In this document: positions 143-64,000 of the stretch, in pieces
How the letters are laid out: every line of letters begins with the position of its first letter
How positions within the stretch are numbered: position 1 is the first letter of the stretch
NCBI RefSeq assembly: GCF_000283655.1
Contig: NC_016622.1
Coordinates: 1,810,501 to 1,874,500, forward strand
Length of the DNA stretch: 64,000 bases
Direction: 5' to 3'
Origin: Azospirillum lipoferum 4B
Lineage (GTDB): Bacteria > Pseudomonadota > Alphaproteobacteria > Azospirillales > Azospirillaceae
Translations under genes and position numbers: made by a program
Notes under the pieces: generated by a model
What the model was told of the DNA's origin: nothing
What the model saw: only the letters and a program-made list of their open reading frames with translations
The model's database searches: none

Positions 143-2092
143 ATGGGCATGCCGATCCGTCTTCTCCCTGAAACGCTCGTCAACCGCATCGCCGCCGGCG
201 AGGTGGTCGAACGTCCCGCCGCCGCCGTGAAGGAGCTGGTGGAGAACGCCATCGACGCCGGCGCCACCCGCATAGACGTGGTGGCGCGCGACGGCGGCAA
301 GTCGCTGATCGCCGTCACCGACGACGGCTGCGGCATGACCGCGGACGAGCTGGTGCTGGCGGTCGAACGCCATGCCACCTCCAAGCTGCCGGGCGACGAC
401 CTGCTCGACATCCGCTCCCTCGGCTTCCGGGGGGAGGCGCTGCCGTCCATCGGCGCGGTCAGCTGCCTGACCATCACCAGCCGCGCCCGCGGCGCCGACA
501 GCGCCTGGAGCCTGACGGTGGATGCCGGGGCGAAGGGCCAGCCGCAGCCGGCGGCGCTGGCCCAGGGCACGCGGATCGAGGTGCGCGACCTGTTCGCCGC
601 CGTGCCGGCCCGGCTGAAGTTCCTCAAGGCCTCGCGCACCGAATACGACCACATCGCCGATTGCCTGGAACGTCTGGCGATGGCCCATCCCGGCGTCGCC
701 TTCACGCTCAGCGACGGCGGGCGCGGGGGATTGCGGCTGAGCGCGGCGCAGGGCGACCTGCTGGACGCCCGGCTGACTCGGCTGGGCGCTCTGATGGGCC
801 GCGATTTCCAGGAGAATGCCGTGTCGGTGACGGCGGCGCGCGAGGGTGTGACGCTGGCCGGCTGGATCGGCCTGCCCACCCTGCACCGCCCGACTGCCAA
901 GCACCAGCACCTGTTCGTCAACGGCCGCCCGGTGCGCGACAAGCTGATGGTGGGCGCGGTGCGCGCCGCCTATGCCGATTTCCTGCCGCGCGACCGTCAC
1001 CCGATGCTGGCGCTGTTCCTCGACATCGACCCGCAGGAGGTCGACGTCAACGTCCATCCGGCCAAGGCCGAGGTGCGCTTCCGCGACCAGGGTCTGGTGC
1101 GCGGCCTGATCGTCGGATCGCTGAAGCACGCGCTGGCCGAGGCCGGCCACCGTGCCTCCACCACCGTCGGCCTCGCCACGCTGGGCGCCCTGCGGCCCGA
1201 ATCGGCGGGAGAGACCGACGGCCAAAGGGATGGGGGCTTCACCCCCTCCCCCCTGCCCTACGGCCGTTCCGGCGGCGGCGGAGGTTCGGGCGGGAGTTGG
1301 GGCGGGAGTTGGGGCGGCTCCTACACGCCGGCCGCCGTGCCGCGCGGATTGGCGGAGCGCTCCGCCGCCTTCCAGGCGCCGACCCAAACGGGGCTGCCGC
1401 CGCTGCAGGGCCGTCTCAGCGGCTTCGGCAACGGCTTCGCCCCGTCGGCCCGCCCGCCGGAATACCGCACCCCCGACCCGTCCGCGCAAAAGCCCGAGCC
1501 GCCGCTCGACAGCCATCCGCTGGGCGCGGCGCGGGCGCAGGTCCACACCACCTACATCGTGGCCCAGACCCGCGAGGGCATCGTCATCGTCGACCAGCAC
1601 GCCGCCCATGAACGGCTGGTCTATGAGCGGATGAAGACCGCCCTGCTGGAAGGCGGCGTGAAGCGGCAGGCCCTGCTGATCCCCGAGCTGATCGAGCTGG
1701 ACGAACCCTCCGCCAACCGCCTGCTCGCCCGCAGCGCCGAACTGGCCGAGCTGGGTCTGGTGATCGAGGGCTTCGGCCATGGCTGCGTCATGGTGCGCGA
1801 GGTTCCGGCCCTGCTCGGCCAGTCCGACGTGAAGAACCTGATCCGCGACCTTGCCGAGGAACTGTCCGAACTGGGCGACGCCCTGTCCCTGAAGGAACGC
1901 CTTGAGGAGGTCTGCGCGACCATGGCCTGCCACGGGTCCGTCCGCGCCGGCCGCACGCTCAGCGTCGACGAGATGAACGCATTGCTGCGGCAGATGGAGG
2001 CGACTCCGCACAGCGGCCAGTGCAACCACGGCCGGCCGACATACGTGGAGCTGAAGCTGGCGGATATTGAGAGGTTGTTTGGGCGGAGGTAG
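143..2092 (+). CDS. mutL: DNA mismatch repair protein MutL
   Basis: MutL couples mismatch recognition by MutS to strand incision and excision. The 649-residue protein opens with the GHKL ATPase region. The N-box LVENAIDAG is near residue 33, followed by DDGCGM, HATSKL and GFRGEAL. A Gly/Ser/Trp-rich low-complexity linker (around residues 375-390) separates the ATPase from the C-terminal dimerisation domain. That domain carries [12 protein letters not shown] near residue 484, matching the DQHA(x)2E(x)4E metal-binding motif of endonuclease-proficient MutL. This is expected in a bacterium that uses methyl-independent repair. The start shown is an ATG; a second ATG two codons later is equally possible. 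Length is normal for the family. Confidence 0.97.
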
Positions 2093-2158
2093 GAAGCCTG
2101 CATAAGCACCTAATAAAAGCAAAAAGAGAGCAATAAAAAGTTAAGGGACGATCACTCG

Positions 2159-2941
2159 TTAACCGCGATCCGAAACTCTCACGAGCCTTTCTTTAGCAAA
2201 AGCCAGTATTTTTTGCATTTCTGAAGATAGCTTGCGGATTTGATTCCAATCCACATCACCACCCTCAGCAATCGCCATCAAATTCTGGTTAATTATCTTG
2301 TAATCTTTGGGGGTTAATGAGATAATATTGTGAGCATACAAGTCACTCTGTATTGTTGATAGGTCGGCTTCTTTCATCTCTTTACGCCTCCATCCAGGAA
2401 AACGGTATGAGAGAATTCGAAGCCATCTAGCCCATATTCTTCCCAGAACTGCATCCTGGATACCTGGATCAGATTTATTAAGAGATTCAATTTGTGATAG
2501 CGCAATTTCAATTTCTGCCTCCAAGGCATTCCAATTCCTAGCCGTAGCTCCTTTCATTTTTCTTGCACGAAATCTATCTGCCGACCCGTCCAAGAATCTA
2601 ATTTCGATATCGGAAAATACATCATTATTTTCTAATACTATTCTCTGCAAGTCTTCAAAGCGATCACCAGCTTTTTTGTTGTAGAGTTCTGTATCAGGGC
2701 TTGGCCACCCGACTCTATCGCGATTTGCAATTTCGACAATCAGAAGATGCGGTCGCGCAAGACCAACGCTTTCACCACCCCCTTTGTAGTCTACTACTAT
2801 ATCAGCCTTTATATCATATTTCAGTAGACGATCCCTGTTCTCGAGATTTTTGATTTGTCCTATACGGACATCATGGAAAACCTCAGCCCCTCCGACAGAG
2901 TACTGCCCAATCAGGAGCTTAATTTGGTCACTCTGCTTCAT
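2159..2941 (-). CDS. Unknown protein of an AT-rich cassette
   Basis: I do not recognise this 260-residue protein. It is visibly AT-rich against GC-rich neighbours and lies 2 bp after the stop of the RusA-like gene, so the two are almost certainly cotranscribed and translationally coupled. The N-terminal half has a beta-strand pattern with acidic residues (ADIVVDYKGG, then HLLIVEIANRD near residue 86). This vaguely recalls a PD-(D/E)xK fold, but the final Lys is replaced by Asn, so nuclease activity is only a guess. The C-terminal half is helical and charged. There is no signal peptide or membrane segment. Base composition points to recent horizontal acquisition. Confidence 0.75.
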   Translation of the reverse strand: MKQSDQIKLLIGQYSVGGAEVFHDVRIGQIKNLENRDRLLKYDIKADIVVDYKGGGESVGLARPHLLIVEIANRDRVGWPSPDTELYNKKAGDRFEDLQRIVLENNDVFSDIEIRFLDGSADRFRARKMKGATARNWNALEAEIEIALSQIESLNKSDPGIQDAVLGRIWARWLRILSYRFPGWRRKEMKEADLSTIQSDLYAHNIISLTPKDYKIINQNLMAIAEGGDVDWNQIRKLSSEMQKILAFAKERLVRVSDRG

Positions 2942-2943
2942 TG

Positions 2944-3402
2944 CTAAATCCTAGTTCTTTGATTTGGCGGATTGTCAATCCGAACGTAAATTGCGGCAGC
3001 GCCAAGCCTTGCATCTTGCAAAGCATCAAACTCACTTCTGGTGAAGGCTGATCCAGTTAGTCTCGTATGAATCGCCAAATCTGTTCGACGACTGCGAACT
3101 TCTTCGACATACCTGTCATCATCTATTAAGCGCGTTGGATTCCGTGTCCGCCCAACATATAATCCTTGAAGCGCATCCATAATTGGCTTCAAAATATTGT
3201 CAACATCCTTCACGGGATCCGTTCTTCGATAGTATCGAACACGTACCGTGCACAAGCCAGGTACTACAATTGTTCCCGGAGCCACTCCACTGACGCTAGC
3301 GTTATAGACATCTGCTCTCCAGGCGTTATACGCAGAAGTCCCATATCTATTTACCGTAACGGGTGTACCGGCAAGGCGGAAGTCTTTTAAAGGAGGAGCC
3401 AT
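2944..3402 (-). CDS. RusA-like Holliday junction resolvase
   Basis: The core DVDNILKPIMDALQG, followed by a conserved DDDRYVEEV stretch, matches the RusA family, where acidic residues in (D)xDNxxKxxxDAL and the later DD bind metal and cleave four-way junctions. The sequence is AT-rich like its partner gene 2 bp downstream. The ATG shown (152 residues) gives normal RusA length. In-frame ATGs at 3435 and 3504 would add an N-terminal extension with no family resemblance, but no start has a convincing Shine-Dalgarno, so the 5' end is uncertain. RusA proteins are usually phage-borne. Here no phage genes surround it, only toxin-antitoxin sequences, which suggests a small defence or mobile cassette. 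Confidence 0.8.
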   Translation of the reverse strand: MAPPLKDFRLAGTPVTVNRYGTSAYNAWRADVYNASVSGVAPGTIVVPGLCTVRVRYYRRTDPVKDVDNILKPIMDALQGLYVGRTRNPTRLIDDDRYVEEVRSRRTDLAIHTRLTGSAFTRSEFDALQDARLGAAAIYVRIDNPPNQRTRI

Positions 3403-3523
3403 CTTTAACTCGCAATTTTTTGCGTTGCATAGCATCTTCCTAATCCAAAAGAAATATCGCAAATTGCCGAAGAGGCCAGGATCGAGCAACAATGGGAAGA
3501 TCACTAGGAAGGTGCTGGGCTAG

Positions 3524-45186: not shown

Positions 45187-45261
45187 GGCAGCGTAGCTCA
45201 GTGGTAGAGCAGGGGAATCATAATCCCTTGGTCGGGGGTTCAAATCCCTCCGCTGCTACCA
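45187..45261 (+). tRNA. tRNA-Met (CAT anticodon)
   Basis: The sequence folds into a complete cloverleaf. The acceptor stem is GGCAGCG/CGCTGCT (closing G-T pair at the end), and the D stem is gctc/gagc. The anticodon stem is gggga/tcccT with loop ATCATAA, and the T loop is TTCAAAT. An encoded CCA closes the gene at 45261. The CAT anticodon fits elongator tRNA-Met; tRNA-Ile2 (lysidine) cannot be excluded by sequence alone, but the body is unlike an initiator (no CGCGGGG start). It lies just upstream of the mobile element and could be its integration site. Confidence 0.9.
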
Positions 45262-45365: not shown

Positions 45366-47843
45366 CTACCGGCGGGTTCCGATCACGGTCGGAATCGCCA
45401 GGCGCATGGCGACCGGTGTGTAGATGTCCACCGGTGCGCCGGGGGCGCGAATCGAGACGATCAGGGCGTAACGGGCCGGCGTGCTCCAGCGGTCCAGGAA
45501 GGGCTTCTCCTTCCACCAGCCACCGACCGGGAAGACGCCGATAGCGTCGCGCGACGCCAGCTCGGCCGCGGTTCCCCGCCACCAGTCCGAATGGATCGAG
45601 CCGCGGTCGCGCAGGGTGCCGAGCAGCCAGCCGTCGCCACCGGTCGCTGTGGCCGTGCCCCCTTCCTCCTCCTCACGGGCCGCCTTGTTGATACGGCGTC
45701 GGAAGTCGTCCAGCGGCTCGGTCGCGCGTTTGACGGCGAAACGCAGGGCGTGCGACGCGTAGCGGTGCCGCCGCGTCCAGCCGCGCTCGCCGGGATTGGG
45801 CTCGACGAAGTACGACAACGTAAGGCGCAGTTCCACGGGCAGTTCGCCAAGCGCCTCCAGTTCGTCGCGCGGCCAGGGCAGCCGGTGCAGGTTCATGTTC
45901 TTCATCGTCGCCGTGCTGCCGTCGCGCTGAAACGGCTGCACCTCGTCCTCGACCATGAGGGTAAGGTCGTTGCTGGCGCTCAGCAGAGCCCGCCCGAGGT
46001 CCGGCACACCATAACCATAGCGGCGCAACAGCGCCTGCATCTCGCGCTTCCCGCCACAGGCGTCGAACCGCGCCCGCATCGCCGGAGTCCATTCCGCGGC
46101 ATGGACGATCAGCCCGCGCACCGTCTCCGGCCACAGCCGGGGCCGGGCCGTCCTGATCCGGGCGGCCATGTTGGCCGCCAGGGCCGTGGCACCGCTGGTG
46201 TCGCCCAGCGTGTCGAACAGGCGCCGCGCGGGCCGGTAATGGGTCGTCAGCAGTTGCAGGTCGTCGATGGCTTCCGGCGGAAAGCGGCCATCCCCAGCGA
46301 GATTGCCGCCTTCGAACGTCACCTCGGGCTTGATCGGCCATTGGCGCTCCCACAACACCGACGTCCGGCTGCGCGGTGAAAGGTCTCCCGCTGGAGCCAG
46401 AGGCGCCCAGCCGTCGTAAGCCGGATGGGTGATGGTAATCTTGTCCGTGCAGGCGCCGACCGTCAGCGCGTTCCACGCCTGGGCGGGGTCTTCGACCGGC
46501 TCCAGATCGTTCCGGTCGAGGTAGGCGGCCGGATCGAGGTCATCCCGGATGTTGCCGGCGGACACCACCACGAGGCGGCGCCCGGTTTCGTCGAAGCAAA
46601 GCTGATCGATGGCGGACGACCACGACGACGGCCTCCCGCGTGACGGGCTCGGGCTGGTCACCGCCATGCAAACGACTCGGTTGCGGAACGGCGCCTGCAC
46701 CTCGGCGCGGGCGATGGCTTCACCGGTGAGCGCGCCGTACAACTCCGGCTCGTTGTCCGGAACGCCGTCGGGCGGCAGGATCTTTACACTTTCCAGCCGA
46801 TGGGACAGGGTGACCGGATCGGCCGTCTCCAGGACCGCATGCAGGTCGCCGTAGAGTGCGGCCCCCGCCATGGCCGTACCGTGCCCCAACCACCGGCCAG
46901 CGGAGTCGGCCACGCCCCAATCAGGATTGACCGTGTGCAGGTCCTCGTCGGCGAGAGCCGGACGCAGCAGCGGGTGTCCCGCCGTAGCGCCGCTGTCGAG
47001 CAGGCAAACAGCGCTGGCAGCGCCATCCGGCGGCGTCAGGCGACCGAGAAGCTCATCCGTCCACTCCCGCTGGGCGGCCCCATCCATGGCGAGGAACATG
47101 GCCGGCGTGTCCTTGGCCGCCCGCAATTCAGCCACCGCGTCGCTGTTGCGCACCAGCCGGGTCATCGTGGCCTCATCGGCCAGGGCTAGCACCACGTCCC
47201 GTTCGGGAAAGCGGACGGCGTGCGGTTTCACAGGCACGTTCAACCGTCCGGCGACTCGCTCGAACAGCGGGCGTGTGTCGCGGCGCAGCCACACCTCCCA
47301 CCAGATTGCCTGACCGGGGGGCGGATACAGCGCGTCCGCATCAGTGAACAGTGAGCGCACGGTGGCCACGCGCACCGTTTCCAGGCGGGTGACCAGAGCT
47401 TGGTTCTTCGGGTGGCCCTTGGCCGTCTGTTCGGTTCGATAGGCTTCCACCTTGTCCAGGTAGAACGACTCGGCGCCGGCCGGGATGAACACCGTGGCGG
47501 CAACCGGCCCGGCCGGATCGCCGGGATCGCGAACGGCGACGACCTCCACGGCCTTGCGGCGGTCGCCGAGCTGGTCGATGGCGGCCCGTTCGGCAGCGGC
47601 GATCTCGACCTCCAGATAGAAGCCCGGCCTGCCTTCCGCGATGTCGGGCTCCCGCGCCGCCATCTCGCGGCGTCCGCCCGCGAGCGCTTCGCCGATGGCC
47701 CGTTCGAGCGCCTGCGCGTGGCCCTCACGGTCGCGCAACGGCAGTGGACGGGGCGTGATCTTCTGCGGTGGGCGGCTGTAGGGCTCGGAGGTGCCGCCGC
47801 CTTCGACGTGGAGGTGCGGCCGGTCGCGCGGAGTATCGGGCAT
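45366..47843 (-). CDS. ietS: Subtilisin-like serine protease IetS
   Basis: This 825-residue S8-family protease has the three catalytic segments. Asp is in AVCLLDSGATAG, His in GRWLGHGTAMAG, and Ser in GDTSGATALAANMAARI. A long N-terminal region (about 270 residues) and a long C-terminal region flank the protease core. Paired with the AAA ATPase gene just upstream, it matches the IetAS system, first known as a plasmid-stability (toxin-antitoxin-like) module of Agrobacterium Ti plasmids and later listed among phage defence systems. IetS is the candidate effector. The ATG at 47843 follows the ATPase stop by 15 bp; a GTG two codons earlier (47849) is also possible. Confidence 0.88.
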   Translation of the reverse strand: MPDTPRDRPHLHVEGGGTSEPYSRPPQKITPRPLPLRDREGHAQALERAIGEALAGGRREMAAREPDIAEGRPGFYLEVEIAAAERAAIDQLGDRRKAVEVVAVRDPGDPAGPVAATVFIPAGAESFYLDKVEAYRTEQTAKGHPKNQALVTRLETVRVATVRSLFTDADALYPPPGQAIWWEVWLRRDTRPLFERVAGRLNVPVKPHAVRFPERDVVLALADEATMTRLVRNSDAVAELRAAKDTPAMFLAMDGAAQREWTDELLGRLTPPDGAASAVCLLDSGATAGHPLLRPALADEDLHTVNPDWGVADSAGRWLGHGTAMAGAALYGDLHAVLETADPVTLSHRLESVKILPPDGVPDNEPELYGALTGEAIARAEVQAPFRNRVVCMAVTSPSPSRGRPSSWSSAIDQLCFDETGRRLVVVSAGNIRDDLDPAAYLDRNDLEPVEDPAQAWNALTVGACTDKITITHPAYDGWAPLAPAGDLSPRSRTSVLWERQWPIKPEVTFEGGNLAGDGRFPPEAIDDLQLLTTHYRPARRLFDTLGDTSGATALAANMAARIRTARPRLWPETVRGLIVHAAEWTPAMRARFDACGGKREMQALLRRYGYGVPDLGRALLSASNDLTLMVEDEVQPFQRDGSTATMKNMNLHRLPWPRDELEALGELPVELRLTLSYFVEPNPGERGWTRRHRYASHALRFAVKRATEPLDDFRRRINKAAREEEEGGTATATGGDGWLLGTLRDRGSIHSDWWRGTAAELASRDAIGVFPVGGWWKEKPFLDRWSTPARYALIVSIRAPGAPVDIYTPVAMRLAIPTVIGTRR

Positions 47844-47858
47844 CGGCACGGTCTGCGG

Positions 47859-48842
47859 CTATTCCGTGGTGGCGCGCCGCTCCGCGATGGCCGCGAGCAA
47901 CGCTTCGGTGGTGATCGTGATGCCGCCGTCGAGCACGGCGGCTTTGGCGGCTTCATCCGCAGCGCGGGTCGATTCGGCATGGCTCAGGCCGACGGCAGCC
48001 TCCGCGACGGCTTTCCAGTCGATCCAGTCCACCGTGAACGCGGCGAGACGCGCCTTGAGCAACCGCTCGATCAAGGTGGCGTCGGGCAGCGTGTACTCCA
48101 GGACGTCGTCGAACCGGCGGAACAACGCCCGATCAAGCAAATCCGCATGATTCGTCGCCGCGACGATCAGGCCCTGACTGTCGTCCTGCTCCAGGAATTG
48201 CAGGAAGGAGTTGAGAACGCGCCGGATTTCACCGACATCGTTCTCGGTCGTGCGGCGGGCGCCAAGCGCGTCGAACTCGTCGAAGAAGTACACACCCCGA
48301 GTCGCCGCCATCGCCTCGAACACGAGCCGCAGCTTGCCCGCCGTGTCCCCCATGAACTTGGAGATGAGACCGTCGAGCACGACGGTGAACAGCGGCAGCC
48401 GCAGTTCACCGGCCAACGCCGCTGCCGTCATCGTCTTGCCCGCCCCGGGCGGTCCGACGAGCAGGAGCTTGCGGCGCGGCACGAGGCCATGTGCGCGAAG
48501 CCGTTCCTGCTGCGTCTGTTCCAGAAGCGTACGCCGCAGGCGCCGCTCGACGCCGTCGGTCAGCACCATGCTATTGAGCCGCACGTCCGAATATCGGACA
48601 GACAACAGGTTCGCCAGCTCGCCCTTCGGCTGAACCAGCGGTACGGGGCCGCCGGGCCGCCGCTCGACCGCGCTCGGCCGGACCTTGGCTGCATCGATCA
48701 GGTCGCGCAGTTCCTGGGCCAGCTTGCCGTGTCCCTGGCGCGCTTCAAGCGCAGCAACCTGCATCGCCACCGAGAGGAACTGCTGTTCATCCCCGGCGAT
48801 GTGGCTCTTGAGCAGGGCAATGATGTGGCGTGCGGCGGTCAT
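47859..48842 (-). CDS. ietA: AAA ATPase IetA
   Basis: The 327-residue AAA ATPase shows Walker A (LLVGPPGAGKTMTAAALAG), Walker B (GVYFFDEFDALGA) and the sensor-1 region VAATNHADLLDRALFRRFD. IetA probably controls the neighbouring protease, as chaperone-like antitoxin or sensor. The N-terminal region is helical. It is upstream of ietS on the minus strand, and the short gap implies an operon. The ATG at 48842 has no strong ribosome-binding site. Confidence 0.9.
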   Translation of the reverse strand: MTAARHIIALLKSHIAGDEQQFLSVAMQVAALEARQGHGKLAQELRDLIDAAKVRPSAVERRPGGPVPLVQPKGELANLLSVRYSDVRLNSMVLTDGVERRLRRTLLEQTQQERLRAHGLVPRRKLLLVGPPGAGKTMTAAALAGELRLPLFTVVLDGLISKFMGDTAGKLRLVFEAMAATRGVYFFDEFDALGARRTTENDVGEIRRVLNSFLQFLEQDDSQGLIVAATNHADLLDRALFRRFDDVLEYTLPDATLIERLLKARLAAFTVDWIDWKAVAEAAVGLSHAESTRAADEAAKAAVLDGGITITTEALLAAIAERRATTE

Positions 48843-55400: not shown

Positions 55401-56802
55401 GGCGAAGAACCAGAGGCTGCGGGTGCATTACCTGCTGGAGGCCGGCTGGAAGGCCGACGCCGCCATCCAGGGGCTGGGGCGGACCAACCGCACCAACCAG
55501 GCGCAACCGCCGCTGTTCCGCCCGATCGCCACCGATGTCCGAGGCGAGAAGCGCTTCCTCTCCACCATTGCCCGCCGGCTCGACACGCTGGGGGCTATCA
55601 CCCGCGGCCAGCGCCAGACCGGCGGTCAGGGCCTGTTCCGCGCCGACGACAACCTCGAATCCGTCTACGCCCGTGCCGCCCTGCGCCAGCTCTACGGCCT
55701 GCTGCACGCCGGCAAGGTCGAGGGCTGTTCGCTGGGGGACTTCGAGGCGGCGACCGGGCTGTCCCTGAGCGACCGCGACGGTGGCCTGCGGGACGAGCTG
55801 CCGCCGATCACCACCTTCCTCAACCGGCTGCTGGCGCTGACCATCGGCTTGCAGAACACGCTGTTCGGCGTGTTCGAGCAGTTGCTGACCGCCAGGATCG
55901 AGGGGGCCATCTCGTCGGGCACCTACGACCGCGGCGTCGAGACGCTGGTGGCCGACAGCTTCACCGTCACCGGGCGGCGGACGCTCCACACCCACGCGGC
56001 GACCGGGGCGGAAACCCGGCTGTTCACCCTGGCCCGGCGCGACCGCAACCAGCCGATGGGTGCGGAGGACGCGCTGGAACGCGGTGCCGGACCGCAGGCC
56101 CGGTTGCTGGTGAACACGCGCTCGGGGCGGGCGGCGGTGGCGGTGCCGGCGGCGAGCCTGATGCTGGACGACGGGACGGTGGAGCGCCGGGTGCGGCTGC
56201 TGCGGCCGATGGAGCGGGTGACGGTGACGCTGGCCGAACTTGCCCAGAGCCAATGGCGTCCGGCCGAACCACCGGCCTTCTCGGCCGCCTGGGAGGCGGA
56301 GGTCGCCACGGTGCCGGACTTCTCCACCAGCACGCTCCACCTCGTGACCGGGCTGCTGCTGCCGGTGTGGCGGCGCCTGCCGGACACGAACCTGCGGGTG
56401 GTGCGGTTGCAGACCGACGCGGGCGAGCGGATCATCGGCCGCGTGGTGGCGCCGGACGTTCTGCCCGAGGTCGAGCGGAACTTCGGCGTTGGGGCCGGGG
56501 CGGCGGTTCCCGTGCCGTCGGTCGAGGAGGCCTGGACGCGGCTGCAAGGCGAGCGGGTGGCCCTGCATTTGGCCGACGGGCTGTGGCTGCGCCGGGTGAC
56601 GGTGGCGGGCGCGCATCGCGTCGAGCTGTTCGGCTTCACCGGCGGGATGGTGGACCGGCTGAAGGCGCTGGGGCTGACGGGGGAGATCATCGCCTGGAGC
56701 CTGCGGCTGTTCGTGCCGGTGGGCGAGCGGGGAGCGGCGGTGTTCGCGGCACTGCTCGCACGGCACCCGCTGCTGCGCGTCGTCGAGCGGACGGTGGCGT
56801 GA
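52429..56802 (+). CDS. DNA methylase-Strawberry-notch-type helicase fusion
   Basis: This 1457-residue protein has an N-terminal adenine methyltransferase-like domain. It has the SAM-binding motif [14 protein letters not shown] near residue 150 and the catalytic NPPF near residue 216. A P-loop helicase with [19 protein letters not shown] (near residue 502) and [12 protein letters not shown] (DESH box, near 612) follows, then a C-terminal helicase domain ([44 protein letters not shown]). This is the Strawberry notch family, frequent in mobile elements. Methylation of the element together with DNA remodelling would aid antirestriction. The ATG at 52429 is preceded by a purine-rich region (ccggaggttcgcc). 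Confidence 0.93.
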   Translation: [1457 protein letters not shown]

Positions 56803-56814
56803 GCGGCCGGCACC

Positions 56815-57843
56815 ATGTCCGCGGCGTCGGAGATTGCGCAACGCCTCGCGCGGGAGGCCGAGGCGGTGTGCCGGCGCTACCTGCCGGTTGGCCGGCGGGA
56901 GGGCCACTACTGGCGGATCGGCGACGTTCAGGGCACGCCAGGGGGCAGCCTTTACGTCCACCTGCACGGCGTCGCCGCCGGCAAATGGGCCGACGCCGCC
57001 ACCGGCGAGCACGGCGACCTGCTCGATCTCATCGGGGCGAACCGGGGGCTCGACCGCCTGCGCGACGTTCTGGCCGAGGCCCGGGCGTTTCTCGGCCAAC
57101 CGAGGATCGGCCCTGGTCCCGGCGATCGTGAGGCGCCGGTGTCGGCCGGATCGCCGGAGGCCGCCCGCCGGCTGTTCGCCCGGTCCCTGCCGGTCGCCGG
57201 CACGCTGGCCGAGGCGTATCTGCGCAACCGCGGACTTCCGGACATCCGGAATTCCGGCCCCCTGCGCTTCCAGCCACGCTGCTGGTACCGGGATGCCGGG
57301 GACCGGTTCGTCGCCGGCCCGGCGCTGGTGGCGGCGGTCACCGACCTGGACGGCCGGCTCACCGGGGTGCAGCGGCTCTGGCTCGATCCCTCCGGCCGGG
57401 GCAAGGCGGCGATGCCGTCACCGCGCCGGGCGCTGGGGCACCTGCTCGGCAACGGCGTCCGCTTCGGCGTGGCGCGCGACGTGCTGGCGGCGGGGGAAGG
57501 CATCGAGACCATGCTGGCGCTGCGGCTCGCCCTGCCGGTCCTGCCTGCGGTGGCGGCACTCTCAGCCGGGCACCTTGCCGCCCTGCGGCTGCCGTCGGCG
57601 CTGCGGCGTCTCTACATCGCCCGCGACAACGACGCGGCCGGGCAGCGGGCCGTGGACCGGTTGGGCGACCGTGCTGACGCGGCCGGCGTCGAGGTCCGGG
57701 TGCTGGCGCCGCAGGCCAAGGACCTCAACGACGACCTGCGGGACCACGGTCTGGCGATGCTGCGGGCGCATCTGCGGGCGCAGCTCGCTCCAGAGGAGGG
57801 CGCAGCGGGCTGGGAGACTGGCGATCCGGGGCGCAACGGATAG
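56815..57843 (+). CDS. Toprim-domain primase-like protein
   Basis: The 342-residue protein has an N-terminal region resembling the DUF7146/zinc-free primase family (EGHYWRIGDVQGTPGGSLYVHLHG). Its C-terminal Toprim domain carries VLAAGEGIETMLAL (catalytic Glu) and LYIARDNDAAGQRA (DxD-type acidic pair). It is likely to make primers or act on ssDNA during transfer of the element. It begins 12 bp after the helicase stop, so they are cotranscribed. Start ATG at 56815. Confidence 0.9.
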   Translation: MSAASEIAQRLAREAEAVCRRYLPVGRREGHYWRIGDVQGTPGGSLYVHLHGVAAGKWADAATGEHGDLLDLIGANRGLDRLRDVLAEARAFLGQPRIGPGPGDREAPVSAGSPEAARRLFARSLPVAGTLAEAYLRNRGLPDIRNSGPLRFQPRCWYRDAGDRFVAGPALVAAVTDLDGRLTGVQRLWLDPSGRGKAAMPSPRRALGHLLGNGVRFGVARDVLAAGEGIETMLALRLALPVLPAVAALSAGHLAALRLPSALRRLYIARDNDAAGQRAVDRLGDRADAAGVEVRVLAPQAKDLNDDLRDHGLAMLRAHLRAQLAPEEGAAGWETGDPGRNG

Positions 57844-58157
57844 GCAGGCGGGAAGCGGGCAAGTGTCGGGCGGGGCGCTGGTTGGAGCCGGGCAGCCCCT
57901 CCGGTCCGGGAGAGGCCGCGGCCACGGCCTTCCAGCGGGCGATCGGGCGGCAGCCGCGGCAGGACCGCAACGGTGGCGGTCAACTTTCTTCCCCGGCCGG
58001 CCAAGCCGGCCTTCCTCGCGAAACAAGAAAGCCGCCCGCCGCCGTCCTCCGCTCGCGCTGCGGCCCAAGAGGGTGCGGACCCGCCCCGCCCGCCGCGAAG
58101 GGATCGCCACGAAGGCCGCGATGGGCGCGGCCGGTCCCAGCCGAAGGACGATCCGTC
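57844..58157. other. Intergenic leader region before the DUF2493 gene
   Basis: This 314-bp gap carries the long leader repeat in its right half. Its left half is GC-rich and shows no gene. Confidence 0.5.
57987..58157 (+). repeat. Long leader repeat, copy A (before DUF2493 gene)
   Basis: About 170 bp share long blocks with 62169-62346: tcttcccc at the start, cgctgcggccc at 58056-58066, gggtgcgg, gatcgcca at 58102, and aaggccgcgatgg at 58112-58124. Each copy ends just before an ATG. Palindromic ggccggccaagccggcc near the left end can form a hairpin. The copies are probably structured mRNA leaders or promoter/operators used by two island genes. Confidence 0.75.
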
Positions 58158-59096
58158 ATGGTCACCGCCCCCGACACCGACGACATCGAGCCCCGCCACG
58201 CCGCCTCCGCCACCGACCACGCGCTGGTCGAACTCCAGCTCTACGGCCACCGCCCCTTCCAGGACGATCCCGACCCCCGGCCGCTGCCGGACGAGACCGC
58301 CATCCGCGGTGCCTTGGCCGACGTTTTCGACGCCCTGGTTTCCACCCTGACGGACACCCGGTTGGAGCCCGATCTGGCCGACCTGCTGTGGTCCACCGTC
58401 AACCTGTTCCACCGCGCCGCCGACCGGGTGCAGCGTGAACTCGACGACAACGAGGACGCCCAGAAGCGCAGCCAGCGCGAGCAGGACGGTTCGGAGATCC
58501 GCTCGGTCGAGCTGGAGCGGCTGCTGGCCGAAGGGCTGACGCTGATCGAGCGTCGCACCGCCATGGAAATCTTCCGCGACCACGCCGCCGAGCTGTTCGA
58601 GGTCCACACCGGTTCCGCCTGGCGGCCGCGCGCCGGTTCGCTGGTCAGCCGCCGCACCCTGACGGCATCGCTGATCGACAGCCGCGACTTCCTCGCCGCC
58701 AAGCGCCGGGCCGAGACCGAGCCGCTGCTGCCGCCCGGTCCCCGCATCGCCTTCACCGGTGGCGTCGAGTGCAACGACCATCACCGCATCTGGGCGGTGC
58801 TCGACAAGGTGCGCGCCAAGCACCCGGACATGGTGCTGCTGCACGGCGGCAGCCCGAAGGGGGCGGAGCGGATCGCAGCCTGCTGGGCCGAGCATCGCAA
58901 GGTGGCGCAGGTGCTGTTCCGGCCCGACTGGGCGCGCCATGCCAAGGCCGCCCCCTTCAAGCGCAACGACCGGCTGCTGGAGGCGCTGCCGATCGGGGTC
59001 GTCGCCTTCCCTGGCTCGGGCATCGTGCAGAACCTGGCCGACAAGGCACGGGCGATGGGCATTCCGGTCTGGCGCTTCGGTGATGGTGGGGCGTGA
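58158..59096 (+). CDS. DUF2493 (SLOG-superfamily) protein
   Basis: The 312-residue protein has a C-terminal SLOG/DUF2493 domain: RIAFTGGVECNDHHRIWAVLDKV, DMVLLHGGSPKGAERIAACWAE and GIVQNLADKARAMGIPVWRF. This is a Rossmann-like nucleotide-derivative-binding fold. An N-terminal helical region (residues 1-190) is specific to the mobile-element form. Such proteins are constant in alphaproteobacterial ICEs but their role is unknown; SLOG domains in other settings bind nucleotides in defence or signalling. It is preceded by the long leader repeat. ATG at 58158. Confidence 0.9.
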   Translation: MVTAPDTDDIEPRHAASATDHALVELQLYGHRPFQDDPDPRPLPDETAIRGALADVFDALVSTLTDTRLEPDLADLLWSTVNLFHRAADRVQRELDDNEDAQKRSQREQDGSEIRSVELERLLAEGLTLIERRTAMEIFRDHAAELFEVHTGSAWRPRAGSLVSRRTLTASLIDSRDFLAAKRRAETEPLLPPGPRIAFTGGVECNDHHRIWAVLDKVRAKHPDMVLLHGGSPKGAERIAACWAEHRKVAQVLFRPDWARHAKAAPFKRNDRLLEALPIGVVAFPGSGIVQNLADKARAMGIPVWRFGDGGA

Positions 59097-59171
59097 GCCT
59101 CCGCCCATCCGGCGATCCGCAAAGACGCACTGCCGGATTTCCACAATTTATGAAGAATATATCATTAAATC

Positions 59172-61352
59172 TCAATTTTCCTCTTCTGAATTAATTTGAA
59201 ATCTGAAAAAGCAAATCCCATCATACGTCGAGATTTTGGATTTTTTCGATCTTACTATTATAACGCAATCAGTCGCCCCTATATTTGACGCCATATCGCT
59301 TGAAATTGTTCGAGATATAAATTTCAACTCTTCAATATCTGCGGGAGTCTCTTTTGTCATATGTACGGCGACTACAAACACCCTATTTCCGACCTCCACC
59401 CGCCCTACTGCTGTATTGCCGCCACCTAATCCTCCACCTGATCGCCATCTCTTCACTCTTTGCTCAATCCCAGCCAGAACACCAGGATGTTGATTGAGAA
59501 GCGCTTCGAGTATATCGAAGCGGTGCTTTGAACTCTTAGTCGCGTATATTTCGGCCGCGATAAGTCGCCACCATGCCGTTAGAGTAACGCCGATGTTCTC
59601 AAAGCGAGTTCGATCACCTGGTACCGGTGACCGACCGCGAACCATAGCATCAGCCTGATGCATTATTATATCTGCGCCCGCCAAATCCGACCCGTTAATA
59701 GCAAAGCCATTTATTAGGTACATTGACAATAAATCTTGCTCATCTCCATGGAATTTTATCAACTCATCAATTGATGATCGTCTTGCTAGGTAATGAAACA
59801 AAGAGGCTTCTGTATCAAGTCTACTGCATATCATGCGAAGTTCACCAAGAGATAAGATTGGAGCCCAAGGAGTTTTTGGCTCTGATAGCTTAAGTTCTAT
59901 ATACCAATGGCGAGCACTGCTCAAATGAGCCATGTGTTCAATGCAAACTCCAAACATAAAAACAATCTTTGGTGTATTGTGATTGATGGGTAAGGCTTGT
60001 CCTTTCCGATCATGGAGCATTCCTGTAGCTAGAGATCCTGTAGACAGCAAGTCGCGCAAGCGACGAGCTTGAGTCCCTGGCGCAACAAATAATTCTCGGA
60101 AATTTTTAACGAGACTTTCTTTTCCGCCACGGCGGGTTGCATCTTTAATTCTCCCTGCTTTGGCCTCAAATATAAACACATGATTTCCAAGAATGGCTAC
60201 TACGTCGTGCTCCCATGTCTTGTTTGTTGCTGGATCAGTCCATTTAACGCCACGATGCACGCTAGCAGATGGCAATCCTACTTGGAGAAGTCGCTCAATC
60301 TCATCCTCTAAATAATTGGCGCGCGCCAACGAATAAGCGGCATCCAATTTTCCGCCCTTTGGTATAGTTTGCTCAATTATCCAGAAAGGAAAACTAATAA
60401 TGAGCCCCGGCAAGGGCAGCATGAGTGTATCATGGCTTATCTTAACAAAAGGACGCCGCCAAACCGGATTATTTAGGTGAACTCCCGATAAATCGTTTTC
60501 TGAAATTGATCCAGGGGTTAAGGCGAGAGAAAATAAAGCGTTAGAAACATTTTCGCCAAATTTGTCTACAAGGTCAGATCTATCAAAGCAGAACATAGGT
60601 GCATGCGCCGTCTCTGCTATCTGAAATATAGTAAATGCTCGTTCATCGTCCCTGCGCAAGTATTTTGAGCATCTATTCCAGAGCTTTGCTGCGATTGGTG
60701 TTTCTGAAAACAATTTATCTAGATCGACATTATCTAGGCGTCCGCCCAATAGTTCCCTCATAATATCAGATGATTTATATGCACGCTCTACTATTATCCC
60801 TATTAATGAAAATAGAGACCTTACCAAATCAGAGAGAGGGAAGCCAATTTCTTTTACAGCGGCGGCATCAATACGAGAAAAAATCTCCGGTAAAATTTTT
60901 TCTGCTTCATCGCTGCTAAAAATATTTCGATAGTAAGTAGTCTGCAGTCTTGTCAATCGTATAACTATATCGAGACCTTCATCGTTTTTTGATGGTGCAG
61001 GCCCTTGGCGAGCCCAAAGATCTTCGCCAAGTAGCTTCCATAATTTAATTATACTACGAGGCGAAGAAAGAACAGGCCGCCCCGTCCCCCAAGCAAGAAT
61101 ATAAGCTTGTAAAATCTCAGCTGCAGGTTGGTCAATAAAGCATGATCCGTCTTCTCTTTTGGGATCTGACAATAAATCAATAAGAAGCTGTTGTCCAGAT
61201 TTCGCAAGAATAGATAATGCATCACGCCCAATAAGAGCGCTGCGAATTTGTTTCTGTATTTTTATGGGATCGCCCCGCTCATTAGGAGAGAAAGCATGAA
61301 GTTGCTTCAACGAAATGGCAGCGTAGCCGGGAATACTGGGAAAATTTTCCAT
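59172..61352 (-). CDS. AT-rich gene for a large putative PD-(D/E)xK nuclease
   Basis: This 726-residue protein is markedly AT-rich against its neighbours and is probably a recent insertion into the island. A region around residues 350-410 has a restriction-endonuclease-like pattern. An acidic helix (EDEIERLL) is followed by EHDVVAILGNHVFIFEAKAG, where the Asp and the Glu-x-Lys fit a nuclease active site resembling NERD/RE-like nucleases. The N-terminal 340 residues and C-terminal 250 residues are without recognisable motifs. It stands alone on the minus strand, with no partner gene. A TATAAT -10 box (61372-61377) is 20 bases before its ATG. I suspect a defence role, but this is inference. Confidence 0.8.
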   Translation of the reverse strand: MENFPSIPGYAAISLKQLHAFSPNERGDPIKIQKQIRSALIGRDALSILAKSGQQLLIDLLSDPKREDGSCFIDQPAAEILQAYILAWGTGRPVLSSPRSIIKLWKLLGEDLWARQGPAPSKNDEGLDIVIRLTRLQTTYYRNIFSSDEAEKILPEIFSRIDAAAVKEIGFPLSDLVRSLFSLIGIIVERAYKSSDIMRELLGGRLDNVDLDKLFSETPIAAKLWNRCSKYLRRDDERAFTIFQIAETAHAPMFCFDRSDLVDKFGENVSNALFSLALTPGSISENDLSGVHLNNPVWRRPFVKISHDTLMLPLPGLIISFPFWIIEQTIPKGGKLDAAYSLARANYLEDEIERLLQVGLPSASVHRGVKWTDPATNKTWEHDVVAILGNHVFIFEAKAGRIKDATRRGGKESLVKNFRELFVAPGTQARRLRDLLSTGSLATGMLHDRKGQALPINHNTPKIVFMFGVCIEHMAHLSSARHWYIELKLSEPKTPWAPILSLGELRMICSRLDTEASLFHYLARRSSIDELIKFHGDEQDLLSMYLINGFAINGSDLAGADIIMHQADAMVRGRSPVPGDRTRFENIGVTLTAWWRLIAAEIYATKSSKHRFDILEALLNQHPGVLAGIEQRVKRWRSGGGLGGGNTAVGRVEVGNRVFVVAVHMTKETPADIEELKFISRTISSDMASNIGATDCVIIVRSKKSKISTYDGICFFRFQINSEEEN

Positions 61353-61696
61353 ATAACCAAAGCCTCACGCTATTATAAATAGTAAATACGCCAGACATCT
61401 CTTGGGTGGAACTTAGACTAGCTTGTAATGTTTTGCACGCTCGCTGTGGGTTCAAAAGCCGCAGTGATTTTCTCATAAATCCCGTATTGTCATAGGGTTT
61501 ATAAGTGCTTCTGGCGGCTGTGCGGGCAAGCCCGCCCATCGGGCTCTCGTGAACCGAGCCACCTACGGCGTCTCGGCCCTCCGGGCTTCGATCCCTACCG
61601 CGGTCGTTGTTTTGGCGGAAGCGAGGGCGACGGGCCGGTGCATCCTTCAGCATCGGTGCGCGGGAGCAGCCAGTCAGGCAGGGAACGACCACCCGG
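61353..61696. other. Composition transition upstream of the AT-rich gene
   Basis: The left part (to about 61500) is AT-rich and carries the likely promoter of the minus-strand nuclease-like gene, with tataat on the minus strand at 61372-61377. The right part returns to high GC. No gene is supported. The right part may be a fragment of older island DNA. Confidence 0.5.
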
Positions 61697-61903
61697 TCAT
61701 GCCGTTGGATCGCCGCTGAGGTCGGCCGCCTCGAAGGCCCGTTGAAGGCTGCCCGGTGCGTAGCCGCGCAACGATCTCCCGCCGCTCTCGAAACGGCGGA
61801 CGGCCGGCACGGACAAGGTCGCCTTATCGGCCAGGGTCTCCTGGGACCATTGATGCTGGCTTCGGAAGGTTCGGCACTGTTCGGGTGCGCGTCCTATCTC
61901 CAC
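61697..61903 (-). CDS. Small HTH protein (XRE-like), start uncertain
   Basis: The frame encodes RAPEQCRTFRSQHQWSQETL followed by SVPAVRRFESGGRSL. This is the helix-turn-helix pattern of small XRE regulators that begin around PEQC(R)xAR. There is no in-frame ATG in a good place; a GTG at 61903 or a TTG at 61921 could start it. It may therefore be truncated or rely on a weak start. It is probably a regulator of island genes. Confidence 0.5.
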   Translation of the reverse strand: MEIGRAPEQCRTFRSQHQWSQETLADKATLSVPAVRRFESGGRSLRGYAPGSLQRAFEAADLSGDPTA

Positions 61904-62168
61904 CGCTCTATCGAGGCGCAATCATGGCCGGTCGGGTTGGTTCGTACCTCTTCTGCCGGTGTGGCCACCGCAGTGCGCCGATGGTGGAGCGCCTGGGAGC
62001 GCCCAGCATGACCATCCCTCTCCGGGTCGAAACCGCTGAGCCATCCGGCATCCCCAGCGGTCTGGAGTCCGGTGCGGCCAGCGCGGCTTTGTCTGCTGGC
62101 GACTCTGGCGCCAGGGACGGCTGCCTCGGCAGCCCGACCTCGATCCCGCAACCGGCGAACGCCAACCG

Positions 62169-62346
62169 TCTTCCCCGTCGTGCTCGGCCAAGGCCGGCGC
62201 GCGGCTTCCTCGCGAGGCAAGACGCCCGGCTCCCGCCGGTCCTCCGCTGCGCTGCGGCCCTTTGGGTGCGGGCCGGTCGCCCGGCGCCCTTTGATCGCCA
62301 TCAAGGCCGCGATGGTCGCGACCGCACCCCATCAAGGAGACGACAG
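62169..62346 (+). repeat. Long leader repeat, copy B (before DUF736 gene)
   Basis: This region matches copy A (57987-58157) in order and spacing of several blocks, including cgctgcggccc (62250-62260), gggtgcgg, gatcgcca (62293) and aaggccgcgatgg (62303-62315). It ends at a strong ribosome-binding site (aaggagacgacagATG). It contains hairpin-forming ggccaaggccgg and cctcgcgagg segments. Confidence 0.75.
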
Positions 62347-62643
62347 ATGGCCCAGATCGGCAGCTTTACCCGCGGCGACGACGGTTCCTTCGCCGGCACG
62401 ATCAAGACCCTCACCCTCAACATCAAGGCCCGCTTCGTTCCTATGGAGAAGGAGCACGACAAGTCCCCTGACCTGCGCGCCCTGTGCGGGCCGATCGAGA
62501 TCGGCGCCGGCTGGCGGAAGGCCGCCAAGGACACCGGCCGGCCCTACCACTCGGTCAAGCTCGACGATCCCAGCTTTCCGGCCCCGATCTACGCCAGCCT
62601 GATCGAAGTCGATGGCGGTTACGCGCTGATCTGGTCCCGCTGA
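62347..62643 (+). CDS. DUF736 family protein
   Basis: This 98-residue protein is a DUF736 member: IGSFTRGDDGSFAGTIKTLTLNIKARFVP, RALCGPIEIGAGWRKA and FPAPIYASLIEVDGGYALIWSR. The family is almost confined to alphaproteobacterial plasmids and ICEs, where it accompanies ardC and DUF2493 genes. Its role is unknown. A strong ribosome-binding site (aaggagacgacag) and a long repeated leader precede it. Confidence 0.93.
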   Translation: MAQIGSFTRGDDGSFAGTIKTLTLNIKARFVPMEKEHDKSPDLRALCGPIEIGAGWRKAAKDTGRPYHSVKLDDPSFPAPIYASLIEVDGGYALIWSR

Positions 62644-62947
62644 GGTGACACGCCGGTTGCAGCGTTCCGTCCGGGGAACTGCAACCGGCAGGTCTGTCCG
62701 TCTGGTCCATTACGGCCGCCGCGGTCCGACCTGCGGCATCCCCGTTTTCCCGAACGTTCTATCTGCCTTTTCAGACCTCCCAGCCTACCATGCCGGATCG
62801 CCCCGCATCGAGGACGAGCGGTGCCCCCAAAATGCTGCGCATTTCGGCTCCCCCGCTCGCCGGCCGGCCGGTCGCCTGTGGCGATCCTCGACCCGGACCG
62901 CTCCGGCACCGTGCGAGCCCTCCTGTCTTCAAACACAGGAGGGACCG
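62644..62947. other. Spacer between DUF736 and the 57-residue gene
   Basis: These 304 bp hold no gene I can support, but they end with the stem that hides the next Shine-Dalgarno. GC-rich inverted blocks (tgcgcatt..., ccggccggccgg) suggest a structured leader. Confidence 0.5.
62918..62943 (+). promoter_or_regulatory. Hairpin that sequesters a Shine-Dalgarno
   Basis: A perfect 9-bp stem (ccctcctgt / acaggaggg) with an 8-base loop (cttcaaac) covers the AGGAGG Shine-Dalgarno of the next small gene, whose ATG is five bases beyond. Folding would block ribosome binding, so translation may be conditional. A transcription terminator role is less likely because there is no T-run. Confidence 0.65.
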
Positions 62948-63121
62948 ATGCTGACCATCGACCGGCAAATCCAGGAACTCCGCATGGAACTGGCTGCTTG
63001 CTTCCTGACCCGTCGCGAGCGTGTCCAGGCCCGGCGGGAGCTGGACACCCTCCTCGCCCGGCACGCGGACCGGGAAGGCGCTTTCAAGACCCTGGCCGCC
63101 GACGACCCGGCGCCCGATTGA
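62948..63121 (+). CDS. Small island protein
   Basis: This 57-residue protein reads MLTIDRQIQELRMELAACFL and RRERVQARRELDTLLARHAD, and is fully helical with a basic middle, probably a coiled coil or DNA-binding helix. It has an optimal AGGAGG ribosome-binding site five bases before the ATG, but that site is buried in the hairpin at 62918-62943. The protein is of a type often found next to DUF736 genes. Function unknown. Confidence 0.7.
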   Translation: MLTIDRQIQELRMELAACFLTRRERVQARRELDTLLARHADREGAFKTLAADDPAPD

Positions 63122-63132
63122 GGCGCTGTTTC

Positions 63133-63390
63133 CTAGGATGACCGAATCGGTGCGATGGTCCCTTCTTCGTCAACCGCGGCCGCATCCGACTCCAGCAACA
63201 CACTCGCGGGCACGCCCAGCGCGTCGGCCAGTTCCTTCAGCACGGTGATGGTGGGGTTGCGGGCGCCGCGTTCGATGCCGCTGATGTAGGTGCGGTGCAG
63301 GCCCGACTCGAAGGCAAGCTGCTCCTGCGACCAGCCGCGCGTGCGCCTGATCCGCTGAACGTTGAGCCCGACCTGCCTGCAGATATCCAT
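63133..63390 (-). CDS. XRE-family transcriptional regulator
   Basis: This 85-residue protein is almost wholly an HTH_3 domain: LNVQRIRRTRGWSQEQLAFESGLHRTYISGIERGARNPTITVLKELADALGV. A short acidic tail follows. It is divergent from the second XRE gene and ends close to the 57-residue gene. It probably regulates island functions, for example excision or transfer. Confidence 0.9.
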   Translation of the reverse strand: MDICRQVGLNVQRIRRTRGWSQEQLAFESGLHRTYISGIERGARNPTITVLKELADALGVPASVLLESDAAAVDEEGTIAPIRSS

Positions 63391-63545
63391 CCGGACAGCT
63401 AGCCGGCATGTAGCCTATCGGTCTACAGACTATGAGTAACATTTTGTTGAGAGCCTGCGCGTTACGGTCCATGCTGCACAGCCGGCGCGGGAGAAACGGT
63501 GCAACGGCATCCCGTAAGCGAAGGCGTGATGCAGGAGAAGGCTTC

Positions 63546-63995
63546 GTGAACGTCGTACCAGAGGCGAGACACAGGGGGCGCGGTCGCACGCCGAAGGTCG
63601 GGACCGGCCTGGACAGGGTGGACACCCATGTCGGCGGCCGGCTGCGGCTGCGCCGCACACTGCTCGGCCTGTCGCAGACCGAACTGGGGCAGAGGGTCGG
63701 CCTGACCTTCCAGCAAATCCAGAAGTACGAGCGCGGCGCCAACGGCATCGCCGCCTCGCGGCTCTGGCAGTTGGCGGACGTCCTCGATGTTCCGGTCAGC
63801 TTCTTCTTCGACGATATGCCCGACGTGGCGCCCCGTGCATCCGGGCTGTCCGATCCCGAAGCGCCGCCGATGGGGCGGCGGGAGACGCTGGAATTGGTAA
63901 AATGCTACTACCGCATCAGGGATCCGCGCGTGCGCCGTGGGGTCTTCGACTTGGTCAAGGCGACGGTGGACGCGGTCGAGGACGTGATCAAATGA
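63546..63995 (+). CDS. XRE-family regulator with C-terminal helical extension
   Basis: This 149-residue regulator has an XRE HTH (GGRLRLRRTLLGLSQTELGQRVGLTFQQIQKYERGANGIAASRLWQLADVL) and the C-terminal DUF-like helical region common in alphaproteobacterial Xre proteins (ETLELVKCYYRIRDPRVRRGVFDLVKATVDAV). The start is the GTG at 63546, chosen because an AGGAG at 63533-63537 precedes it at ideal distance; an ATG at 63432 lacks one. It is divergent from the smaller XRE gene. Confidence 0.88.
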   Translation: MNVVPEARHRGRGRTPKVGTGLDRVDTHVGGRLRLRRTLLGLSQTELGQRVGLTFQQIQKYERGANGIAASRLWQLADVLDVPVSFFFDDMPDVAPRASGLSDPEAPPMGRRETLELVKCYYRIRDPRVRRGVFDLVKATVDAVEDVIK

Positions 63996-64000
63996 CGTCC

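Follow-up and report, generated by a model that had tools for sequence, protein, structure and literature searches.

A putative single-gene PD-(D/E)xK nuclease, probably a defence module, in a cargo slot of an Azospirillum lipoferum island

Why does a gene of strikingly low GC (guanine-plus-cytosine) content stand alone among the plasmid-type genes of an island in Azospirillum lipoferum 4B, and what does its product do? The gene occupies positions 59172–61352 on the (−) strand of the stretch analyzed here, 64,000 nt of contig NC_016622.1 (positions 1,810,501 to 1,874,500; assembly GCF_000283655.1), which we call the window and in whose coordinates all positions are given. We propose that this one gene makes up an entire nuclease-based defence module, lodged in the cargo slot of an island of the integrative/conjugative type, a reading to which we assign a probability of about 0.6, with the defence activity, the target, and the trigger being what we infer. 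That the protein is a nuclease is the stronger part of the proposal and, judging from sequence conservation and predicted models, very probable.

RESULTS

An AT-rich gene at a fixed slot

The open reading frame (ORF) begins with ATG and comprises 726 codons with zero internal stops. A tblastn search found relatives matching 98% and 94% of the protein on two Rhizobium plasmids, with identities of 36.9% and 37.5% and E-values of 2e-131 and 2e-134, and we therefore regard the ORF as a genuine protein gene rather than a chance frame. Its GC content is 43%, with 1-kb windows of 0.458 and 0.428 across 59001–61000, compared with 0.720 to 0.758 in 56001–59000 and 0.662 to 0.681 in 62001–64000. A preliminary description, made from the letters of this DNA alone, had reported a 726-residue AT-rich gene within the island, and the open frame, the Rhizobium relatives, and the contrast with flanks of 66% to 76% GC bear this out. 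The same description credited the gene with its own TATAAT box. The hexamer is indeed present, but it counts for little, as a consensus promoter scan scored nothing at 61372–61377 and found six sites in 58900–61800 against a shuffle mean of 4.0 (standard deviation of 2.5), i.e., no excess; a sigma-70 promoter at this place was dropped. The gene and its surroundings are as follows:

57882..59096, (+) strand: ORF containing the DUF2493 gene, the true start lying somewhere inside
59100..59146: left slot edge, adjoining an inverted repeat 3′ of the DUF2493 gene (repeat seen by eye in the alignment)
59143..61519: inserted segment, unshared with the nearest genome, G001 (locus L040), both flanks matching at ~94%
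59172..61352, (−) strand: putative PD-(D/E)xK (NERD-like) nuclease gene, 726 amino acids, single-gene cargo
61372..61377, (−) strand: TATAAT hexamer, ~20 bases 5′ of the nuclease-gene ATG, read from the sequence
62347..62643, (+) strand: DUF736 gene, across the slot from DUF2493

The names DUF2493 and DUF736 rest on homologous annotated plasmids rather than on a hidden Markov model scan of the window genes. The preliminary description held that the new gene interrupts the DUF2493-DUF736 order, and it does sit between the two, but the interval contains one to five other genes in all four of the inspected plasmids that have both annotated; the nuclease gene thus fills a cargo slot and does not break an operon. 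In G001, the match to the window (~94%) runs up to 59142 on the left and starts again at 61520 on the right, and between these flanks lies 1.8 kb of unrelated DNA with a 35% GC gene, whose HNH_5 match falls slightly below the Pfam cut-off. The corresponding segment of the window holds one gene only, with no second gene seen. Homology to the window stops at 59119–59146, just past DUF2493, in 11 out of 11 Azospirillum-like loci (a spread of 27 bases), these loci being the matches at identities of at least 87%, from 10 genomes, with weaker matches set aside. Weak repeat pairs, three of them direct and three inverted, were considered as a frame for the insert and rejected, since none occurred at both edges. 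The alignments show a single gene swapped at a fixed slot.

Conserved residues and predicted fold of the encoded protein

Conservation was assessed among 22 family members, with three broken or partial loci (L015, L018, and L066) left out. E349, E381, and D383 were invariant (22/22), residue 396 was E or Q in all 22, and K398 was kept in 21; together, these positions make up a conserved E...ExD...(E/Q)xK set that we read as catalytic. A second conserved motif, HYLxRR + GDExDLL, includes the invariant residues R525 and E538, and a SEC-C motif is found in seven of the 22 members, the window protein not being one of them. Along the gene, these elements are arranged as follows:

60483..61352, (−) strand: N-terminal, mostly helical region, residues 1–290, with low model confidence over most of residues 1–143
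60153..60353, (−) strand: putative catalytic core codons, residues 334–400 (E349, E381, D383, E396, and K398), from 22-member conservation, the model, and the Can2 alignment
59619..60482, (−) strand: module that profile-profile alignment connects with GapS1, residues 291–578, with HYLxRR + GDExDLL
59172..59420, (−) strand: C-terminal alpha/beta domain, residues ~645–726, from the predicted model

In the window model, the predicted core consists of helix 335–359, strands 364–372, 379–388, and 391–398, helix 411–438, and strand 463–470, and this alpha-beta-beta-beta-alpha-beta order recurs in the predicted model of a relative (L016). Structural alignment of the two models placed the FokI/Nt.BspD6I cleavage domain and Can2/Card1 among the best-scoring solved folds; the VIA structural alignments span mainly residues 146–543 of the window model and barely cover the N- and C-terminal regions. 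A profile of the nuclease region had 22 matches in the PDB, including Can2 (E = 0.01, with the catalytic residues aligned), and the others, which we read as noise, are Armadillo-repeat proteins, most of them designed (0.011 to 0.76), plus two further proteins (0.2 and 0.55). The full-family profile matched only Can2 (E = 0.074) and parvalbumin (1.1), and the N-terminal profile had no meaningful match in the PDB, only two designed proteins (0.13 and 0.87). The predicted fold is that of a PD-(D/E)xK nuclease of the FokI/Can2/McrC type. The PD-(D/E)xK centre suspected earlier is well supported by the 22-member conservation, the two predicted models, and the structural alignment, with weaker profile links to Can2 and, at the family level, to GapS1.

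A sparse family, mostly on plasmids and bacterial contigs

Among 385 genomes of the class, five contain a family member, one of these being a partial match (a first profile found four); the count is 6 of 398 for genomes of the phylum and zero for 61 relatives (37 of one genus and 24 from elsewhere in the class). Ten of 72,556 plasmid records contain the family, as compared with none of 50,697 phage records, and a phage structural protein was accordingly dropped as a candidate. Six loci came from one pattern-limited scan of genome contigs. In viral contig scans, query A1 yielded one relative and queries A2, A3, and A6 yielded none; used as a query itself, this relative matched only itself. It follows P2-like tail genes (named by eye, with one GPD domain by Pfam), and the other 20 of the 21 relatives lie in plasmid records or bacterial contigs, which may include prophages. 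Homologues are thus not confined to phage structural regions, the pattern that the preliminary description had set against its own proposal. The window protein groups with two Rhizobium proteins, one from Tistlia, and one from Azorhizobium (support of 100/100). The Tistlia (G780, L013) and Azorhizobium (G781, L014) genomes each have at least one extra family match, the Azorhizobium extra having a stop inside.

The window protein had no PADLOC family match and no significant NCBIfam match; its single-protein hits to a type III secretion chaperone model (E = 0.14) and to a PHROG of unknown function (0.22) are read as chance. No description of the family turned up in the portions of the literature searched, including those of PMC12409351, PMC10952713, PMC12458937, PMC12629846, PMC12774648, and PMC12259885. 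Two Streptomyces plasmid members (L006:6125-8626 and L007:6071-8536) bear the annotation "preprotein translocase subunit SecA," apparently in error.

A whole-family link to GapS1

In its source study, GapS1 was reportedly tested and found to be an anti-phage protein. The NCBIfam GapS1 model (NF047931) matched one of the 22 members at an E-value of 0.1 or better (5e-4) and did not match the window protein. The matching member is evidently the Gordonia plasmid protein, the sole match among nine records (E = 2e-5, model positions 214–353); none of the nine passed the cut-off of 320 bits, the Gordonia record scoring 19.3. GapS1-family proteins were sought in 398 genomes, 11 of which matched, three above the cut-off, and five such proteins (three above and two below) formed the target for hhalign. 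Aligned with this target, the 22-member profile gave a probability of 95.5 and an E-value of 1.4e-8 over 261 columns, covering window residues 291–578, and the E-value was 3.2e-9 without the Gordonia protein. Controls gave 0.18 (reversed), 0.46 (best of 20 column shuffles), and 0.058 to 0.5 (six unrelated single proteins). As in the present family, the D and (D/E)xK positions are kept in all five GapS1-family proteins, with the helix glutamate kept in three. The GapS1 model has 455 positions as opposed to 726 amino acids here; ~290 N-terminal and 150 C-terminal residues are unmatched. By profile comparison, residues 291–578 appear homologous to GapS1 when the family is taken as a whole, but the clade of the window protein does not show this by itself. 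GapS1 is named as an anti-phage protein in the Phold paper (PMC12774648) and by the NCBIfam name antiphage_GapS1.

Comparison with other known systems

NERD (PF08378) matched 13 of the 22 members at an E-value of 0.1 or better (best, 2.5e-4); a plain NERD protein was dropped as an identity, the window protein scoring under the Pfam cut-off. Mokosh and Nhi-like systems are defined by NERD together with a helicase, whereas no helicase domain occurs in the window protein or the 22 members, and no second gene is seen in the insert. Mokosh type I and Nhi-like are listed as NERD-containing in PMC10952713. Membership in Shedu was dropped: SduA_C (PF14082) has no match in the window protein at an E-value of 5, and hhalign of the family with a Shedu (SduA) neighbour protein gave 0.058. 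FokI/Nt.BspD6I and Can2/Card1 share the best-scoring folds, but the family has no Pfam-matched CARF or restriction-enzyme recognition domain. As for restriction-modification, the single-gene insert includes no cognate methyltransferase, though the genome may encode a methylase at another place.

Upx (PDB 9wuf) scored a high Z with both models, 8.6 (344 residues aligned) and 11.1 (373 aligned); however, the alignments fall on different halves (29–739 versus 754–1265) at root mean square deviations of 5.5 and 9.2, establishing no register, and Upx membership was dropped because the register differs between the two models. No Upx model was among the PADLOC matches. PADLOC models for PDC-S12 (best, 2.6e-8) and E2 or E1-E2 (best, 2.9e-6 for E2) matched seven of the 22 members but not the window protein; since SEC-C members also number seven, these matches probably run through SEC-C and not the nuclease.

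Cargo of the slot in other islands

To the question of what else the slot holds, a scan of ten proteins from seven of the 11 slot loci gave the following matches:

L040, in slot: HNH_5
L041, beyond slot edge: SspA and SspB
L042, beyond slot edge: type II methyltransferase and LmuB-like (Lamassu-like) ATPase
L043:2678-5242, (−) strand, beyond slot edge: 854-amino-acid protein with HD-CE and HATPase domains, PADLOC match weak
L044, beyond slot edge: type IIG enzyme
L045, beyond slot edge: HAD-type hydrolase and ORC-CDC6-like AAA protein

The defence genes of L041, L042, and L044 begin 0.3 to ~3.8 kb past the slot edge (within ~5 kb). Viewed by eye only, L039, L047, L048, and L049 carry hypotheticals, transposases, or metabolic genes. 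Among eight annotated plasmids of other Alphaproteobacteria, the gene after DUF2493 varies: an antitoxin gene, a TetR regulator, and a metallopeptidase occur once each, one plasmid has a restriction endonuclease and a SIR2 protein past an insertion sequence element, and the remaining ones have hypotheticals, two sphingomonad plasmids being partly alike. Cargo thus recurs at the place after DUF2493, and in several cases it includes defence genes. The cargo of L041, L042, and L044 suggests a defence hotspot after DUF2493, and the L043 protein is a possible defence protein in its own right.

Genes near the relatives

For 11 of the 21 relatives, the fetched stretch includes a gene of a defence or toxin type, a raw count without a background rate that is supportive only:

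L001: D12 methylase and DndB-like
L002: GmrSD
L003: annotated KAP NTPase and methylases
L004: annotated HEPN protein
L005: helicase with NOV_C, plus annotated DUF1156 and DUF499 proteins
L007: KAP NTPase
L014: TIR and PDDEXK_13
L016: CHAT
L051: OLD-like ATPase
L052: RES
L063: SduA_C

DISCUSSION

From the slot content, the neighbours, the patchy spread, and the link to GapS1, we favour defence by a nuclease that attacks the invader. Under this proposal, the N-terminal helical region, together with the C-terminal domain, would keep the nuclease silent and would also recognize an invading phage or plasmid, the trigger being a DNA end, a replication intermediate, or something else. FokI- and Shedu-type enzymes work as a dimer or larger assembly, and the present enzyme probably does so too. 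Once activated, it would nick or cut DNA with Mg2+ and thereby stop the invader, perhaps at the cost of the infected cell, while the island would benefit from competitors being kept out of its host. Outside the shared module, the family is unlike those catalogued, although a single-gene PD-(D/E)xK defence nuclease is itself a known kind. Tentatively, and at somewhat less than even odds, the protein may represent a new and widely distributed class of nucleases that act as single proteins against phages or plasmids and combine a helical sensor region, a GapS1-like PD-(D/E)xK module with HYLxRR...GDExDLL, and a variable C terminus (a SEC-C end in 7/22), alphaproteobacterial conjugative elements carrying them in a defence slot that recurs. 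The finding points to an unlisted predicted defence nuclease family that forms a bridge between GapS1 and proteins with NERD or SEC-C, whose current annotation is hypothetical or, for those of Streptomyces plasmids, SecA. It also suggests searching for more defence genes in the interval that follows DUF2493 in islands of Alphaproteobacteria.

Several observations weigh against this proposal. The window model has a mean predicted local distance difference test score of only 65.6, Foldseek returned no match at an E-value of 0.001 or better, and the NERD score of the window protein (16.8 bits) lies below the Pfam gathering threshold of 22.1. The window clade alone (five sequences) fails to reach GapS1 (E = 0.064), the link running via distant members, and the controls with unrelated proteins used single sequences, which test less stringently than profiles would. 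The right slot edge is seen in only one of the 11 loci (L040), the cargo scan took in seven of them, and the scanned slot protein of L046 had no match at all. The island setting that the preliminary description called typical of anti-phage or anti-plasmid systems is supported in part: 11 of the 21 relatives have a suitable neighbour, but for ten (L006, L008, L013, L017, L050, L053, L061, L062, L064, and L065) none was seen or the locus fell outside the scan, the Nitrospirales locus L017 adjoins ribonucleotide reductase and a DnaJ protein, a housekeeping setting, and the counts are raw.

Of the alternatives, the one that survives best, though we consider it unlikely, is a nuclease toxin that cuts RNA or another host component in abortive infection, with a trigger other than the foreign DNA itself. 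Can2/Card1/Cdn1-type PD-(D/E)xK domains cut DNA or RNA on signalling; such domains are among the best structural matches, Can2 also by profile, and the insert has no partner methylase able to protect host DNA. However, no CARF, SAVED, or other ligand domain was found in the 22 members (Pfam, E = 0.1), and the PADLOC CARF_PDDEXK models match only weakly, in three members (best, 0.0045) and two members (best, 0.013). Less probable still is a nuclease that works for the island by excluding rival plasmids or in conjugation (anti-plasmid activity or entry exclusion) and not against phages. The presence of relatives in plasmid but not phage records fits this idea, as does the position of the gene amid plasmid-type backbone genes, but relatives also occur in bacterial contigs, one relative adjoins the P2-like prophage genes, and G001 has the same backbone without the nuclease gene. 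A resolvase-like DNA repair or recombination nuclease with no defence role is improbable, given that so sparse a spread (5/385, 6/398, and 0/61) and a swapped cargo position are ill-suited to a core repair enzyme. A decaying gene without function, for which the internal stop in L066 (G665) and the split or partial L015 and L018 might speak, can be dismissed almost entirely, as the window copy is full length and keeps its catalytic residues at ~37% identity to its nearest relatives.

Other features of the window

Elsewhere in the window, a subtilase gene (45366–47849, [−] strand; Peptidase_S8, E = 2.6e-66) is paired with an AAA ATPase gene (47859–48842, [−] strand; E = 1.9e-28). The pair lies just past tRNA-Met (45187–45261) and ahead of plasmid-type genes, and this region is possibly the island end at a tRNA attachment site. 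A second AT-rich insert, at 2159–3504 on the (−) strand (44% GC in 2001–3000), adjoins mutL (named by eye) and contains ORFs of 260 and 186 amino acids with no Pfam match, the latter appearing RusA-like by eye.
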